Positions 5,069-10,595 of a DNA stretch of 64,000 nt are shown piece by piece. How positions within the stretch are numbered: the stretch's first letter is position 1; every line of letters starts with the position of its first letter. The notes beneath the pieces were generated by a model. The model was not told where the DNA came from, did not search any database, and worked only from the letters and a program-made list of their open reading frames with translations. Source of the stretch: Actinomycetota bacterium (GTDB lineage: Bacteria > Actinomycetota > Actinomycetes > S36-B12 > CAIYMF01); the NCBI GenBank assembly GCA_009697815.1, contig WLRQ01000003.1:1-64000 (forward strand). The letters run 5' to 3'. The position numbers and the translations under genes were made by a program.

Positions 5069-5887
5069 CTAAGCGGCGGTGCGCGCGCTGGCGGGCTCGT
5101 CCTCGAACTCATCAGCGGCGAAGGCCGGGTTATCGTCAGCGCTCTTCATGCGCGCAATCTTGTAGATGACCAAGCCGTAGAGACACTTGGCGAGGACGTC
5201 TGCAACGGAGTAGCCGACCTGTCGGGCGACGAAGGCGTCGGAACCGTCAAGCCCGAACACCGGGAAGAGGAACGAGATCGGGTAGACGCCCCACGTCGCG
5301 ATGAGGAGTAGGCGGAGACGTCCGACGGTTGCTGAGACCTCGGGCGACTGGCGGTCCAAGGACTTGGTGAGCTGCACGAACAGGACGTAGAGGATGAACA
5401 GGAACGGGATCGTCGAGAGAGCACCCCAGATCATCTTTGGAGCCGTGTCGGCGGCGATCTCACCCGGGTAGCCCAGCACGATCATCAGAGCCGAGGCTGG
5501 GATCAGCTTGTTGAGCAGGGAGGCGCGCGTCACCTTCGGGAGGGCCAGCACCGCGACGGTCTCCAGGAGTAGCAGCGGCACTGTGAGGAGCCAGTCGACG
5601 TAGCGGTAAGCCTCGTTGAATCCCATGGGGGACAGGGCGTAGTCGCCTCCGAGCGTCGTCGGGAGGTAGGCCTCATTGAATGAGTTGAAGATGCGGATGT
5701 AGTGGTAGGCCGCGATGCCGCAGACCATGGCCGAGATGACGAGCGCCTGGCGATAGCGAGGAAGAACGCGACCCTGCGAGACAAGCAGGAAGATCGAGGT
5801 GAACAGCATGGATGCGAGGGCGAAGGAGAAGACGTTATAGACCGTCTGATACTGCCCGTGCGTAAGAGAAGTGATGGCGGAAGACAC
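5069..5887 (-). CDS. light-driven proton-pump rhodopsin, proteorhodopsin/xanthorhodopsin type
   Basis: The seven-helix retinal protein has 272 residues. Helix C reads RYVDWLLTVPLLLLE, giving the DTE triad of outward proton pumps: D98 counter-ion, T102, and E109 proton donor. L106 is the green-absorbing choice at the spectral-tuning site. K234 in ADVLAKCLYG is the retinal Schiff-base lysine, and H62 (YHYIRIF) matches the His that pairs with the counter-ion. Helix E has WGALSTIPF with G155 where xanthorhodopsins keep a small residue that opens the carotenoid site. The C-terminal tail is acidic. The GTG at 5887 has GGAG six bases upstream; the frame continues to 6220 only through the island boundary. 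No carotenoid or retinal gene (crt, blh) is in the window. Confidence 0.93.
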   Translation of the reverse strand: MSSAITSLTHGQYQTVYNVFSFALASMLFTSIFLLVSQGRVLPRYRQALVISAMVCGIAAYHYIRIFNSFNEAYLPTTLGGDYALSPMGFNEAYRYVDWLLTVPLLLLETVAVLALPKVTRASLLNKLIPASALMIVLGYPGEIAADTAPKMIWGALSTIPFLFILYVLFVQLTKSLDRQSPEVSATVGRLRLLLIATWGVYPISFLFPVFGLDGSDAFVARQVGYSVADVLAKCLYGLVIYKIARMKSADDNPAFAADEFEDEPASARTAA

Positions 5888-5965
5888 AGTGGCTCCAGTG
5901 GAATCGCACGTGGATTGCCGTCGTCTCCCGGAACGGCGGACCTCGGCGCGGACCGAGGCGCGACC

Positions 5966-5994
5966 ATAGTGTTGGCAGTGGGAGAACCTTGCAA
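5966..5994 (-). promoter_or_regulatory. candidate rhodopsin promoter
   Basis: On the minus strand, TTGCAA (5989-5994) is followed after exactly 17 bases by CACTAT (5966-5971), about 80 bases before the GTG. The leader contains a CCTCGG/CCGAGG hairpin (5941-5956). It is a match by eye to sigma70-type boxes. Confidence 0.35.
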
Positions 5995-6133
5995 CTTGAA
6001 CACGGCTTGGCGTGTTTGGCGGTGCGGGCATCGAAGTGTGAGTAGAACGCTGGATCGGGCCCACTGCAGTGGTTCCGCCACGTCGCGCACCGAGGACACT
6101 GCGTGGCTCGGGGCGGGCGCATGCGGAGGTCAT

Positions 6134-6182
6134 AGCCTGAGAGAGTGCGCCCGGAGGGACTCGAACCCCCAACCAGCCGGGT
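6134..6182 (-). repeat. distal attachment-site-like copy (orphan tRNA-Arg 3' half)
   Basis: All 49 bases are identical to 10511-10559. It holds the T arm, the acceptor 3' strand and part of the anticodon arm of tRNA-Arg, then diverges at 6183 within the anticodon loop, so it cannot encode a tRNA. Confidence 0.85.
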
Positions 6183-6411
6183 GCAGAAGTGCGTCCCACA
6201 GGGACTCGTTTCGTGTTCATGTTGGGACCTGGAGTCCGGGGGAGTGCCGGACTGAACCGGACGGTGACACCTCTTATGCCGTCAACTGTGCCGTCAGAAT
6301 CGCGCCCCAGTCTGCCCGGGGCTCATTCGCTTGCAGCGTTCAGGCTGCAACGCACGCAACCAGTGCCGCCGTCGGTTGAGTCGGCGCCGCGTGGGTCGCT
6401 TCGTGCGTGGA

Positions 6412-7954: not shown

Positions 7955-8506
7955 CTACGGACGTGCGTCGCCGAGGCCTTCCTCGACAGAACGGACGTCG
8001 AGGACCACGCACGTCCAGGTCACCTTTGGCCCCACGACCGCGACCCGGTCGCCGACCTTCTTGCCGAGAAGGGCGTGCGACAAGGGGGAGTCCACTGAGA
8101 TCCGCTCTTCGTCGAGGAACGCCTCGACCGGGTGCACCGGTCGGACCCAGATGTGCTCACCGTCGGGCATCTGGATCTGCACTCGGTTTCCGGGCTCGAC
8201 CTGCTCGCAGTCGGTCGGGGCCAGCGTCACTGAGGTGCCCAGCAGGTGCTCGAGGGAGAGCGCCTCGGCGCACAGCCGCTCGAAATCCGCGACGTCGCGC
8301 TCGTCACGCTCACGAAGTGACAGCAGTGGACGCAAGCGACGCAAGTGCACGTCGCGAATCTCCCGCAACCTCTCATCGAGGCTGGCCCGGCCCTGGGGCG
8401 TGAGGGCGATGCTGCCCTCGTGTCCGACAGCGGTGGGGGATCCGACGACGAGGGACGCCGATGGTGCGACGGGCGACGAACGTCGGGTGGGGACGTGGGT
8501 GCTCAT
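7955..8506 (-). CDS. GreA/GreB-family transcription factor, divergent
   Basis: The 183-residue protein has an N-terminal extension of about 30 residues, a helical region (SLDERLREIRDVHLRR... RERDERDVADFERL) in place of the GreA coiled coil, and a C-terminal FKBP-like domain with the family signature ISVDSPLSHALLGKKVGDRV. Acidic residues of the coiled-coil tip, needed for RNA cleavage in GreA, are only partly matched (RDVADFE), so it may bind the RNA polymerase secondary channel with altered activity. Its ATG overlaps the terC stop in ATGA, so it is translated with terC and falls under the same riboswitch. Confidence 0.8.
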   Translation of the reverse strand: MSTHVPTRRSSPVAPSASLVVGSPTAVGHEGSIALTPQGRASLDERLREIRDVHLRRLRPLLSLRERDERDVADFERLCAEALSLEHLLGTSVTLAPTDCEQVEPGNRVQIQMPDGEHIWVRPVHPVEAFLDEERISVDSPLSHALLGKKVGDRVAVVGPKVTWTCVVLDVRSVEEGLGDARP

Positions 8507-9516
8507 GACGAACCTCCTGTTGGGGTGGTGCGGGTGGGCTGGTGGCGGGTGGGGCCCAGGTCATCGGGAGCCGGATCGACGGGCGGTGTGACGACCGCGT
8601 CGGTAAGGGTGGGGCGAGTGGCACGAAGACTGGCGACCACGGAGATCGTCAGGATGAGCACGACGACCCCGAGCGAGGTCAAGGTCGGGACCTTCCAGAC
8701 CTCGAGCAGCAGCATCTTGGCGCCGACCCACACGAGCACGGCCGAGAGGCCGAGCTTGAGATAGGCGAAGCGGTGGATGAGGTCGGCCAGCAAGAAGTAC
8801 ATCGAGCGCAGGCCGAGGATCGCGAACGCGTTGGAGGTGATGACGAGGAAGCTCTCCTGTGTCACGGCGAAAATCGCGGGGATCGAGTCGACGGCGAAGA
8901 TGACGTCGGTCACCTCGATGAGGACCAGGACGGTGAAGAGTGGAGTTGCCACCCACTTACGGCCCTGACGAATCCAGAACCGCTGCCCGTGGTAGTGGTC
9001 CGTGGTCGGCACCACGCGCCGAATGAAACGGACCAAGCGACTGTTTCCCGGGTCGGAGTGACTATTGCGCGACGTGGCCATCCGCCACCCGGTGACGACG
9101 AGGAAGGCGCCGAAGACGTAGAGGATCCAGGAGAACTCCGCAATGAGAGTGGCACCTGCGCCGATGAGCAACGTGCGCAGGACGAGTGCGCCGAGCACTC
9201 CGTAGAACAGCACCCGGTGCTGGTATTCGCGCGGCACCGCGAAGTAGCTGAACATGATCGCGAACACGAAGACGTTGTCGACGGCCAGTGACTTCTCGAT
9301 GACGTAGCCGGCGAAATACTGAGCGCCGTAGTCGGCACCGTAGATCGCCCACACGACGCCCCCGAAGGCCACGCCGAGCGCAACCCAGACGGCGCTCCAG
9401 ATCGCAGCCTCACGGACCCTGATGACGTGTGCGCGACGGTGCGCAAGCAGGTCGACGAGCAGCATGATCACGATGACCGCGAGAACCGCGAGCCATCCCC
9501 AAAGAGGAACCGACAT
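8503..9516 (-). CDS. terC: TerC/Alx-family integral membrane metal transporter
   Basis: The 337-residue protein has about nine transmembrane helices. Two family motifs carry acidic residues in membrane helices: EKSLAVDNVFVF (about 74-85) and EVTDVIFAVDSIPAI (about 205-220). TerC/Alx proteins are linked to manganese export and homeostasis in several bacteria, and the yybP-ykoY-type riboswitch upstream supports that role here. The C-terminal 40 residues are a Pro/Thr-rich cytoplasmic tail. SD GGAGG lies seven bases before the ATG at 9516. First gene of the terC-gre operon within the tRNA-Arg island. Confidence 0.9.
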   Translation of the reverse strand: MSVPLWGWLAVLAVIVIMLLVDLLAHRRAHVIRVREAAIWSAVWVALGVAFGGVVWAIYGADYGAQYFAGYVIEKSLAVDNVFVFAIMFSYFAVPREYQHRVLFYGVLGALVLRTLLIGAGATLIAEFSWILYVFGAFLVVTGWRMATSRNSHSDPGNSRLVRFIRRVVPTTDHYHGQRFWIRQGRKWVATPLFTVLVLIEVTDVIFAVDSIPAIFAVTQESFLVITSNAFAILGLRSMYFLLADLIHRFAYLKLGLSAVLVWVGAKMLLLEVWKVPTLTSLGVVVLILTISVVASLRATRPTLTDAVVTPPVDPAPDDLGPTRHQPTRTTPTGGSS

Positions 9517-9560
9517 TCACATACCTCCGACGCAGGGGCGCGTGCGCCCGCCTGATGTCG

Positions 9561-9670
9561 AAGGTCTCCCGCCGCCGCGACCCATTACTGGCCGCGACCC
9601 ACCATGCCGGACACTGATCCACAGGGGCGGTGTCGTACTGACGACATAGCGGCGAGGGGGTACTCCCCTT
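9561..9670 (-). ncRNA. yybP-ykoY family (Mn2+) riboswitch aptamer
   Basis: On the minus strand the aptamer opens with AAGGGGAGTA (9661-9670) and closes with GGGAGACCTT (9561-9570). The outer AAGG and CCTT pair as P1. The GGGGAGTA and GGAGACC internal loops are the two conserved metal-binding segments of this family, and CGTCAGTACGAC lies between them. It stands 44 bases before terC, the family's commonest downstream gene. The intervening GGGCGCACGCGCCC hairpin lies just before the terC ribosome binding site, which suggests control of translation or early termination. Confidence 0.85.
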
Positions 9671-9684
9671 CTGATTGCTCCTCA

Positions 9685-9713
9685 AGAGTGCGGGGAGCGA
9701 GTCACCTTGTCAA
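9685..9713 (-). promoter_or_regulatory. promoter of the riboswitch-terC-gre operon
   Basis: A consensus TTGACA (9708-9713) stands 17 bases from CACTCT (9685-9690). The predicted start falls a few bases before the aptamer P1. Confidence 0.6.
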
Positions 9714-9743
9714 CTCCGAAGCGCGATCACGCGCCCTGCTGCG

Positions 9744-10448
9744 TCAGCGGTTCATGATCGAGAGCAGGCGCAGCAGTTCGAGGTAGAGCCAGATGATCGA
9801 CGATGCCGGGGACATCCCGAGCGACTACGTTTAGGAGCGGGGCGCGCCCGAGGCGATCGCACGGTCAGCGATGCCGATGGCGCAGAGTGCGAGGCCCAAA
9901 CCCGAAACGCCTTAGAAGCCCAAGCCGCCGCCGACTCCCATCACCCTGGCAACGACTGATGCGAGCGAGATCACGAGGTAGTCGATCGCCAGGCCGGAGA
10001 ATAGCTTGACCGAGCGCGATGCCTTGAGCCCGAACGGCGTTGAATAGGCGACCAGCATTCCGATCTAGTCGCCGATGGTGCCGAGAACGGCCTGGGTGAT
10101 GAGTGCGAAGTTGCCGCCCTGGCCCGTTGCTATGTGGGAGAACGCGCCGACAATGAGTCCGAGGACGGCGCTGTAGCCGAGTGCGAGAGCAGAGCTGACC
10201 GGGGCGCGGCGGGCGACGTAGATGCCGAGGAACATCGAGAAGACAAACAGGCCGAGGTAGATGGCCAAGCTGCCTGACAGGAAGATCCAGCCGGGGACGC
10301 GGAACACCACGACGGCACCCAGGCAGGCACCAGTGGTGACGATGACGTCGGGGAGGGTAAGCGTGCCCTGGTCCGGGCCGCGCGTTCGATCCTGGCGAAG
10401 GACCGGATTCTCACCGCTCAGCAGTGGATCTCGGCTATTCGCGATCAA
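9744..10448 (-). pseudogene. Bax inhibitor-1/YccA-family membrane protein, nonsense-riddled
   Basis: The intact N-terminal part (127 codons from the ATG at 10448) has NPVLRQ, TLTLPDVIVTTGACLG and several hydrophobic helices, including NFALITQAVLGTIGD. The same frame then continues through four stops (10065 TAG, 9912 TAA, 9831 TAA, 9825 TAG) and still encodes family features: MLVAYSTPFGLKASRSVKLF, IASGAP and the conserved terminus WLYLELLRLLSIMNR before a TGA at 9744. A stretch before the last helix is missing compared with the usual family length of about 250. It lies next to the attachment site in the island. Confidence 0.85.
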
Positions 10449-10510: not shown

Positions 10511-10559
10511 AGCCTGAGAGAGTGCGCCCGGAGGGACTCGAACCCCCAACCAGCCGGGT
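10511..10559 (-). repeat. proximal attachment-site-like copy within tRNA-Arg
   Basis: This 49-bp copy is identical to 6134-6182. It includes the last 37 bases of the tRNA gene and 12 bases downstream of it. Identity stops inside the anticodon loop. Confidence 0.85.
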
Positions 10560-10595
10560 AGAAACCGGCTGCTCTATCCGTTGAGCTACGGGCGC
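10523..10595 (-). tRNA. tRNA-Arg (anticodon TCT)
   Basis: The 73-base minus-strand cloverleaf has acceptor GCGCCCG paired with CGGGCGC and discriminator A. The D arm contains AGCTCAACGGATAGAGC, the anticodon stem GCCGG/CCGGC encloses TTTCTAC (anticodon TCT), and the T loop is TTCGAGT. The CCA is not encoded. Its 3' half is the integration target of the adjoining island. Confidence 0.95.

Follow-up and report, generated by a model that had tools for sequence, protein, structure and literature searches.

Results

The terC–gre locus

The window, the whole stretch of DNA analyzed here, comprises 64,000 nt of a draft, 2.66-Mb actinobacterial genome in 112 contigs. On its minus strand, reading from 9713 to 7955, lie a –35 element, a weak candidate –10 element, a putative riboswitch aptamer, a Shine–Dalgarno (SD) element (GGAGG, 9528–9524), terC and a gre-like gene. 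The –35 element, read in the sequence, is a perfect TTGACA (9708–9713), and its position is kept in genus relatives: TTGACA or TTGACG lies 46–48 nt 5' of the aptamer in same-genus genomes G000, G003, G006 and G008. After a 17-nt spacer comes CACTCT (9685–9690), a weak –10 candidate matching TATAAT at two of six positions. Hence, the consensus promoter described in an earlier note on this DNA holds for its –35 half and not for its –10 half. A generic promoter scan of the locus did not list a promoter at 9713–9685 of the minus strand.

Gene terC (8503–9516) encodes a TerC-family metal exporter of 337 aa (PF03741, 186.2 bits, 5.8e-55). Downstream, the gre-like gene (7955–8506) encodes a protein of 183 aa, predicted to be a Gfh1-like factor of the RNA polymerase secondary channel (PF01272, 5.1e-13). 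The stop codon of terC and the start codon of the gre-like gene share the sequence ATGA at 8503–8506. With the aptamer in front (9673–9558), this overlap bears out the translational coupling of terC and gre behind a riboswitch that the earlier note had proposed. The same note placed the operon on an island, a reading we dropped. G+C content is even across the window (0.638–0.689 per 4 kb), and the two Phage_integrase matches of the genome sit on other contigs (C27 and C102). No integrase or transposase was found among the Pfam families listed (25 of 72) for 50 ORFs of the window.

Several neighboring genes were also noted. A Bax-inhibitor-1-like gene (10068–10448, minus strand; PF12811, 49.9 bits, covering only half of the profile) separates the riboswitch from tRNA-Arg(TCT) (10522–10595); the remainder of its frame (about 9750–10067) contains stop codons, and the gene looks decayed. 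A bacteriorhodopsin-like gene (5069–6220, minus strand) is near the operon, and a nickel superoxide dismutase gene, among the 50 ORFs scanned, is elsewhere in the window.

A predicted alx-like aptamer upstream of terC

We aligned 20 homologous leaders and analyzed them against a hand-written structure, a three-way junction made up of P1.1, loop L1, P1.2, P3.1, loop L3, P3.2 and P4. In the window, the 5' strand of P1.1 is AAGG (9667–9670), paired in 92.5% of alignment cells. It is followed by the 5' strand of L1, GGAGUA (GGAGTA in DNA; 9661–9666), and then by CCCC, which can pair with GGGG instead. The 5' strand of L3, GUCGUCA (GTCGTCA in DNA; 9639–9645), falls in invariant or near-invariant columns, and the 3' strand of L3, CCGG (9610–9607), and the segment GAGACCTT (9568–9561) were read in the sequence. 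The letters GGGGAGTA, GTCGTCA, CCGG and GAGACC also precede terC or gre in homologous loci, and 24 columns of the alignment are invariant.

Across the 20 leaders, 82.4% of cells were paired in the three-way junction, compared to 69.2% for shuffled alignments. The covariation score was 0.437, versus 0.207 for shuffled and at most 0.148 for slid controls, with changes on both sides in 17 of 25 pairs. Pairing was strong in helices 1, 4 and 5 (92.5, 99 and 95.8%, respectively), with L1 and L3 closed by P1.1, and weakest in P3.1 (61.8% of cells, in an alignment made from sequence alone). Folded as a single sequence, the window leader was unremarkable (z –1.16). Based on these comparisons and on the match to the Escherichia coli alx leader described below, the leader at 9558–9673 (minus strand) is classed as an alx-like yybP-ykoY riboswitch aptamer, in agreement with the yybP-ykoY-type element that the earlier note had seen before terC. 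We also considered the P2-less aptamer as a novel architecture, and rejected the idea when alx proved to be without P2 as well in the alignment to our model.

A second hairpin is predicted around L1. By script count, 62 of the 76 leaders in the order to which this bacterium belongs (the order, below) have [CT]CC directly after GGGGAGTA, and GGGG is predicted to pair with the CCC after the L1 motif. This hairpin could be a second element of the OFF state.

A dedicated covariance model recovers leaders missed by RF00080

From the 20 leaders, we built a covariance model, R1. R1 scored the window at 79.4 bits (E = 2.3e-17), a circular result given that the window is a training row; the independent evidence is the covariation, the alx match and the matches across genomes of the class. 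Two E. coli leaders known to answer Mn2+, both outside the training set, were matched: alx with 44 bits (E = 9.4e-10) and mntP with 16 bits (E = 0.01). Among 17 loci with TerC proteins of at least 57% identity (L003–L019), the motif or an R1 score of at least 34 bits was seen in 16; L007 has neither.

The Rfam model RF00080, which the earlier note had put forward as a check, gave no match in the window at the gathering cut-off and none at E ≤ 10 on 9300–9900. It also gave zero matches across the whole genome of this bacterium, and none at E ≤ 10 in 19 loci with homologous leaders. Yet RF00080 is equally silent on the E. coli alx leader (L046 3875–4001; nothing at E ≤ 10), and it scores mntP at 44.9 bits, just below the cut-off of 45. 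Because RF00080 misses the known alx leader, its silence on the window is a property of the model, and falling below its curated cut-off says something about the detection tool, not the RNA. A covariance-model search without a match, which the earlier note had named as a refuting outcome, is thus not diagnostic when made with RF00080. RF00080 thus seems blind to an alx-like branch of yybP-ykoY, one for which 168 of the 246 class genomes give an R1 match, and due to this gap the Mn2+ regulons of the class are probably under-annotated.

A covarying helix is predicted to mask the SD

The strand CCUUCGAC (9557–9564) has two predicted partners. Its CCUU forms the 3' strand of P1.1 by pairing with AAGG; alternatively, the strand can act as an anti-SD, pairing over 8 bp (9564–9557) in the ligand-free fold with GUCGGAGG (9524–9531), the SD of terC, with the start codon 7 nt on. 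For the window leader, the predicted energy of the OFF fold was –89.1 kcal/mol, compared to –80.2 kcal/mol with P1.1 enforced.

Does this alternative pairing hold in other genomes? We compared duplexes of the anti-SD strand across the 76 order leaders. With the leader's own downstream DNA, the best duplex averaged –13.3 kcal/mol, versus –10.6 kcal/mol with the DNA of other leaders and –10.2 kcal/mol with shuffled DNA; the own duplex was stronger than the mean mismatched partner in 67 of 76 cases. Sixty-two of the leaders stand in front of terC or gre. In 47 of these the helix was unbroken over at least 7 bp, compared to 16.5% of shuffles, and in 55 of the 62 an SD-like motif lay within it. Two of the 62, genus relatives G003 and G008 among them, needed a bulge. 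Outside P1.1, the pairs of the helix exchange freely (G-C/C-G and T-A/G-C/C-G/A-T); one such position is G-C in 35 terC/gre leaders, C-G in 19 and G-T in 6. In ligand-free minimum free energy folds, CCUU paired with the downstream SD side in 59 of the 62 leaders and upstream in one. The scan for terminator-like sites found none. The covarying helix between the P1.1 strand and the terC SD, together with the lack of a terminator-like site in that scan, identifies the leader, as modeled, as a translational ON switch. In vivo, switching would presumably run in the direction described for E. coli mntP, where Mn frees the ribosome binding site (PMC11647493).

The gre-like protein resembles Gfh1

PF01272, the GreA/GreB C-terminal domain, was matched by the gre-like product with 49.2 bits (cut-off 26.9). 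It was the only domain found; the N-terminal GreA/B Pfam domain was not matched. A profile made from 12 Gre proteins and compared with the PDB ranked Gfh1 best (1.5e-18), followed by GreA (1.8e-13) and then GreB. The AlphaFold2 model of the protein (mean pLDDT 87.5) has an N-terminal coiled coil of helices 37–62 and 69–91, with pLDDT mostly >90 there, and its tip at 63–68. In Foldseek, RNA polymerase-bound Gfh1 (3aoi) came first (E = 8.3e-12), and an integrative GreA–RpoB model (9a7t) was nearly equal (9.3e-12), so that the fold alone does not decide between Gfh1 and GreA. Taking sequence and fold together, the protein is nearer Gfh1 than GreA.

The coiled coil carries an acidic tip, RDERD (residues 67–71), in which D68 is invariant and E69 nearly so across 36 rows. 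In an alignment by eye, the family has V72 and F75 at the places of Asn47 and Tyr50 of GreA. The GreA letters used for this placement are seen in L044. Both features of cleavage-promoting GreA/GreB, namely the N-terminal Pfam domain and the Asn/Tyr pair that contacts backtracked RNA, are therefore missing. By sequence and model, the protein looks like a Gfh1-type anti-cleavage factor rather than GreA or GreB.

Gfh1 and the actinobacterial Gre paralogue Rv3788 inhibit catalysis, and their physiological role has been called unknown (PMC4598747). Rv3788 does not stimulate cleavage, and it is without Asn47 and Tyr50, which the binding of backtracked RNA requires (PMC3132773). Deinococcus Gfh proteins enhance pausing in a manner closely related to Mn2+, according to a review (PMC6722170). 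Given the Gfh1-like profile and fold, these precedents make Gfh1-type action under Mn2+ our best inference for the gre-like protein, which would bind RNA polymerase and alter transcription.

Riboswitch and gre are linked repeatedly across the order

Searched with the Gre profile, 246 genomes of the class fell into 10 that scored at least 122 bits and a remainder of which the next scored 49. At E 1e-20, the profile found 45 genes in 43 of the 166 genomes analyzed from the order, and R1 (E ≤ 1e-5) matched in 60 of the 166. A same-strand R1 match lies upstream of 36 of the 45 gre genes (26 of 35 once the 10 loci used to train R1 are removed). These fall into two arrangements: 25 genes have the riboswitch 34–397 nt upstream with no terC between, and 11 have it 1020–1361 nt upstream, behind terC. 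Of the nine gre genes without a match, three (L152, L177 and L192) stop at a contig end just upstream. The other six (L158, L162, L168, L175, L190 and L191) showed no riboswitch down to E of about 0.8–0.9 with filters off, and are genuine absences.

Starting from the riboswitch instead, the following gene could be assigned for 76 of the 77 matches in the order: gre in 26 cases, terC alone in 25, terC–gre in 11 and another gene in 14. Pairing of terC with gre is thus recurrent (11 of 36 riboswitch–terC units), and another 26 riboswitches lead to gre without terC. The earlier note would have given up its idea had gre been absent from other riboswitch–terC loci; instead, the idea is better supported than its author knew, and gre is no passenger of riboswitch–terC. 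Moreover, six genomes (G276, G301, G305, G309, G329 and G330) have separate riboswitch–terC and riboswitch–gre units. Mapped onto a tree built from 82 Gre rows, the three contexts of gre (preceded by terC, directly after the riboswitch, or lacking it) require at least nine changes; this tree was quickly made and its inner branches are weakly supported, and its starred branches alone force just one change per group.

Beyond the order, riboswitch–terC–gre occurs in G064 and G076, and G095 has terC–gre with the leader position past the contig end. Class leaders outside the order mostly precede terC (15 of 19), with no gre within 1.5 kb. As a negative control, distant Gre-like loci of other classes carried a riboswitch in 0 of 14 cases, these loci being drawn from 34 matches listed across 30 genomes out of 346. 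We therefore dropped the extension to other actinobacterial classes; the absence from these loci shows the riboswitch–gre link to be lineage-restricted. No report of a Gre-family target under yybP-ykoY was found in our searches of open-licence PMC. Within that literature, sensor and protein fold are each known, and their repeated connection is new.

Two loci differ in what separates riboswitch and gre. In G020 (L042, about 1174–1390) and G009 (L040, about 1194–1420), a short unrelated ORF lies between them, overlapping or abutting the start of gre; it gives the impression of a remnant or leader peptide in the place of terC. Downstream of the riboswitch–gre unit of G041, there is a SAM-IV riboswitch (109.8 bits; L043 3117–3230).

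Other targets of the riboswitch

Most riboswitch targets are of the TerC and GDT1 types, that is, Mn2+ exporters. Also found behind the riboswitch in the order are genes for membrane proteins of the PGPGW type, antiporters of the GDT1 type, baeRF family 3 proteins and a single Na_Ca_ex protein; Pfam was run on seven of these targets. GDT1/UPF0016 antiporter genes follow riboswitch matches in L222, L221 and L223 (G003, G014 and G036), two identified by Pfam and the third by motif, and the Na_Ca_ex gene is in L227 (G011). Matches before baeRF family 3 genes occur in L209, L229 (G015) and L218 (G038); Pfam confirmed PF18845 (archaeo-eukaryotic release-factor-like) for L209 and L218. Such targets may link Mn2+ to translation. 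Three "other" targets (G310:C456, G302:C1 and G009:C14) were set aside as doubtful or false riboswitch matches.

A PGPGW-like motif was found downstream of 21 of the 76 order leaders (by motif, with two confirmed by Pfam PF09656). Its position varies: the gene can stand by itself, on either side of gre, after terC, or in the middle of a terC–gre pair. Examples of PGPGW (PF09656) genes among L028/L199–L224 are L182 (downstream offset 1121), L204 (offset 164) and L160 (offset 226). From these arrangements, PGPGW genes appear to recur as a third module of Mn2+-riboswitch units.

Discussion

A switch that may couple Mn2+ export to transcription

Our analysis yields aptamer homology and covariation, a covarying anti-SD helix, the operon structure, recurrence of riboswitch and gre with and without terC, and a Gfh1-like fold. 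The reading that we consider likely is that an Mn2+-responsive, alx-like translational switch co-controls TerC and a Gfh1-type RNA polymerase factor. When Mn2+ is low, CCUUCGAC would pair with the terC SD GUCGGAGG, and terC, its SD masked, would be translated poorly, as would gre by way of the ATGA overlap. With Mn2+ in excess, L1 and L3 would dock around the metal, P1.1 (AAGG/CCUU) would form and the SD would be freed, so that TerC, for export, and the Gre factor would be made together. The latter may then enter the secondary channel of RNA polymerase and adjust catalysis, through pausing or inhibition, as Mn2+ competes with Mg2+.

Mn2+ lowers polymerase fidelity, and the same switch might instead deliver a cleavage-promoting proofreader that repairs Mn2+-induced misincorporation, as the earlier note had hinted. 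The conserved acidic tip, with D68 invariant and E69 nearly so over 36 rows, fits such a protein. Nonetheless we judge this role unlikely, in view of a profile and fold nearer Gfh1 than GreA and of V72 and F75 in place of Asn47 and Tyr50, two residues that Rv3788, which does not promote cleavage, is likewise without (PMC3132773). Nor is it probable, in our estimate, that a yybP-ykoY fold here answers mainly to another signal, such as alkaline pH or a different divalent metal. Alkaline pH favors Mn binding by the mntP switch (PMC11647493), and one target belongs to the Na_Ca_ex family and two to baeRF family 3. Against this, the Mn2+ class has these same L1 and L3 loops, and exporters of the TerC or GDT1 type make up most targets.

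Two further explanations are already contradicted by the comparative data. The riboswitch could serve terC only, leaving gre an unselected operon neighbor; consistent with this, terC is the target most often seen in the class (outside the order it follows 15 of 19 leaders, gre being absent within 1.5 kb), and the window's gre has terC between it and the riboswitch. However, 25 of 45 gre genes have a riboswitch 34–397 nt upstream and no terC, gre's own SD is the masked one in these terC-free units, and six genomes keep two separate units; we hold a passenger gre to be very improbable. Even less credible, indeed close to excluded, is a chance resemblance of the motif with no structured regulator behind it. 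The blank RF00080 search and the single-sequence z of –1.16 are what that explanation would expect, but it is at odds with the covariation in both aptamer and anti-SD helix, the 24 invariant columns over 20 loci and the alx match.

If co-control of TerC and a Gfh1-type factor is correct, one RNA sensor adjusts both metal export and transcription. More broadly, and with somewhat less than even confidence, we suggest that the secondary-channel factor belongs to an Mn2+-stress regulon and retunes the polymerase to an Mn2+-rich cytoplasm, with PGPGW as a third, freely combining module. A metal riboswitch before a Gfh1/Rv3788-type factor, in many genomes and in shifting gene orders, would name the condition in which that factor is needed, Mn2+ excess. 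The role of such factors, described as unknown in PMC4598747, would become testable with purified parts.

Comparison with known systems

The window leader shares with E. coli alx and mntP (RF00080) the L1 strands GGGGAGUA and GAGACC, the L3 strands GUCGUCA and CCGG, the P1.1 closure and a TerC-family target. Compared with the yybP-ykoY class, it is missed by RF00080, and its three-way junction does not have the P2 hairpin that canonical members add. In addition, the CCC after GGGGAGUA in leaders of this type can form an alternative hairpin, and the gene under control is of the Gre family, reached either directly or by way of terC. The predicted masking of the SD is reminiscent of E. coli mntP, whose ribosome binding site is masked without Mn (PMC11647493). 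Actinobacterial terC leaders of the class are already known, as exemplified by Corynebacterium glutamicum cg2157 (terC), which has an observed 5'-UTR and scored 49.13 bits with an earlier version of RF00080; the description of that locus in PMC3890552 mentions no Gre gene.

Gfh1 of Thermus and Deinococcus is the best match of the gre-like protein both by PDB profile and by fold, the latter in its RNA polymerase-bound form. The gre-like protein differs from it in sequence (about 30% identity), in its tip, RDERD, and in having its gene under a riboswitch; we know of no riboswitch for Gfh1. Rv3788 of Mycobacterium tuberculosis is likewise an actinobacterial Gre paralogue, one without cleavage activity that inhibits nucleotide addition (PMC3132773, PMC4598747). 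By score, the riboswitch-type proteins appear to form another family: the 10 genes of this type in the class score 122 bits or more with the Gre profile, as against 49 or less for all the rest.
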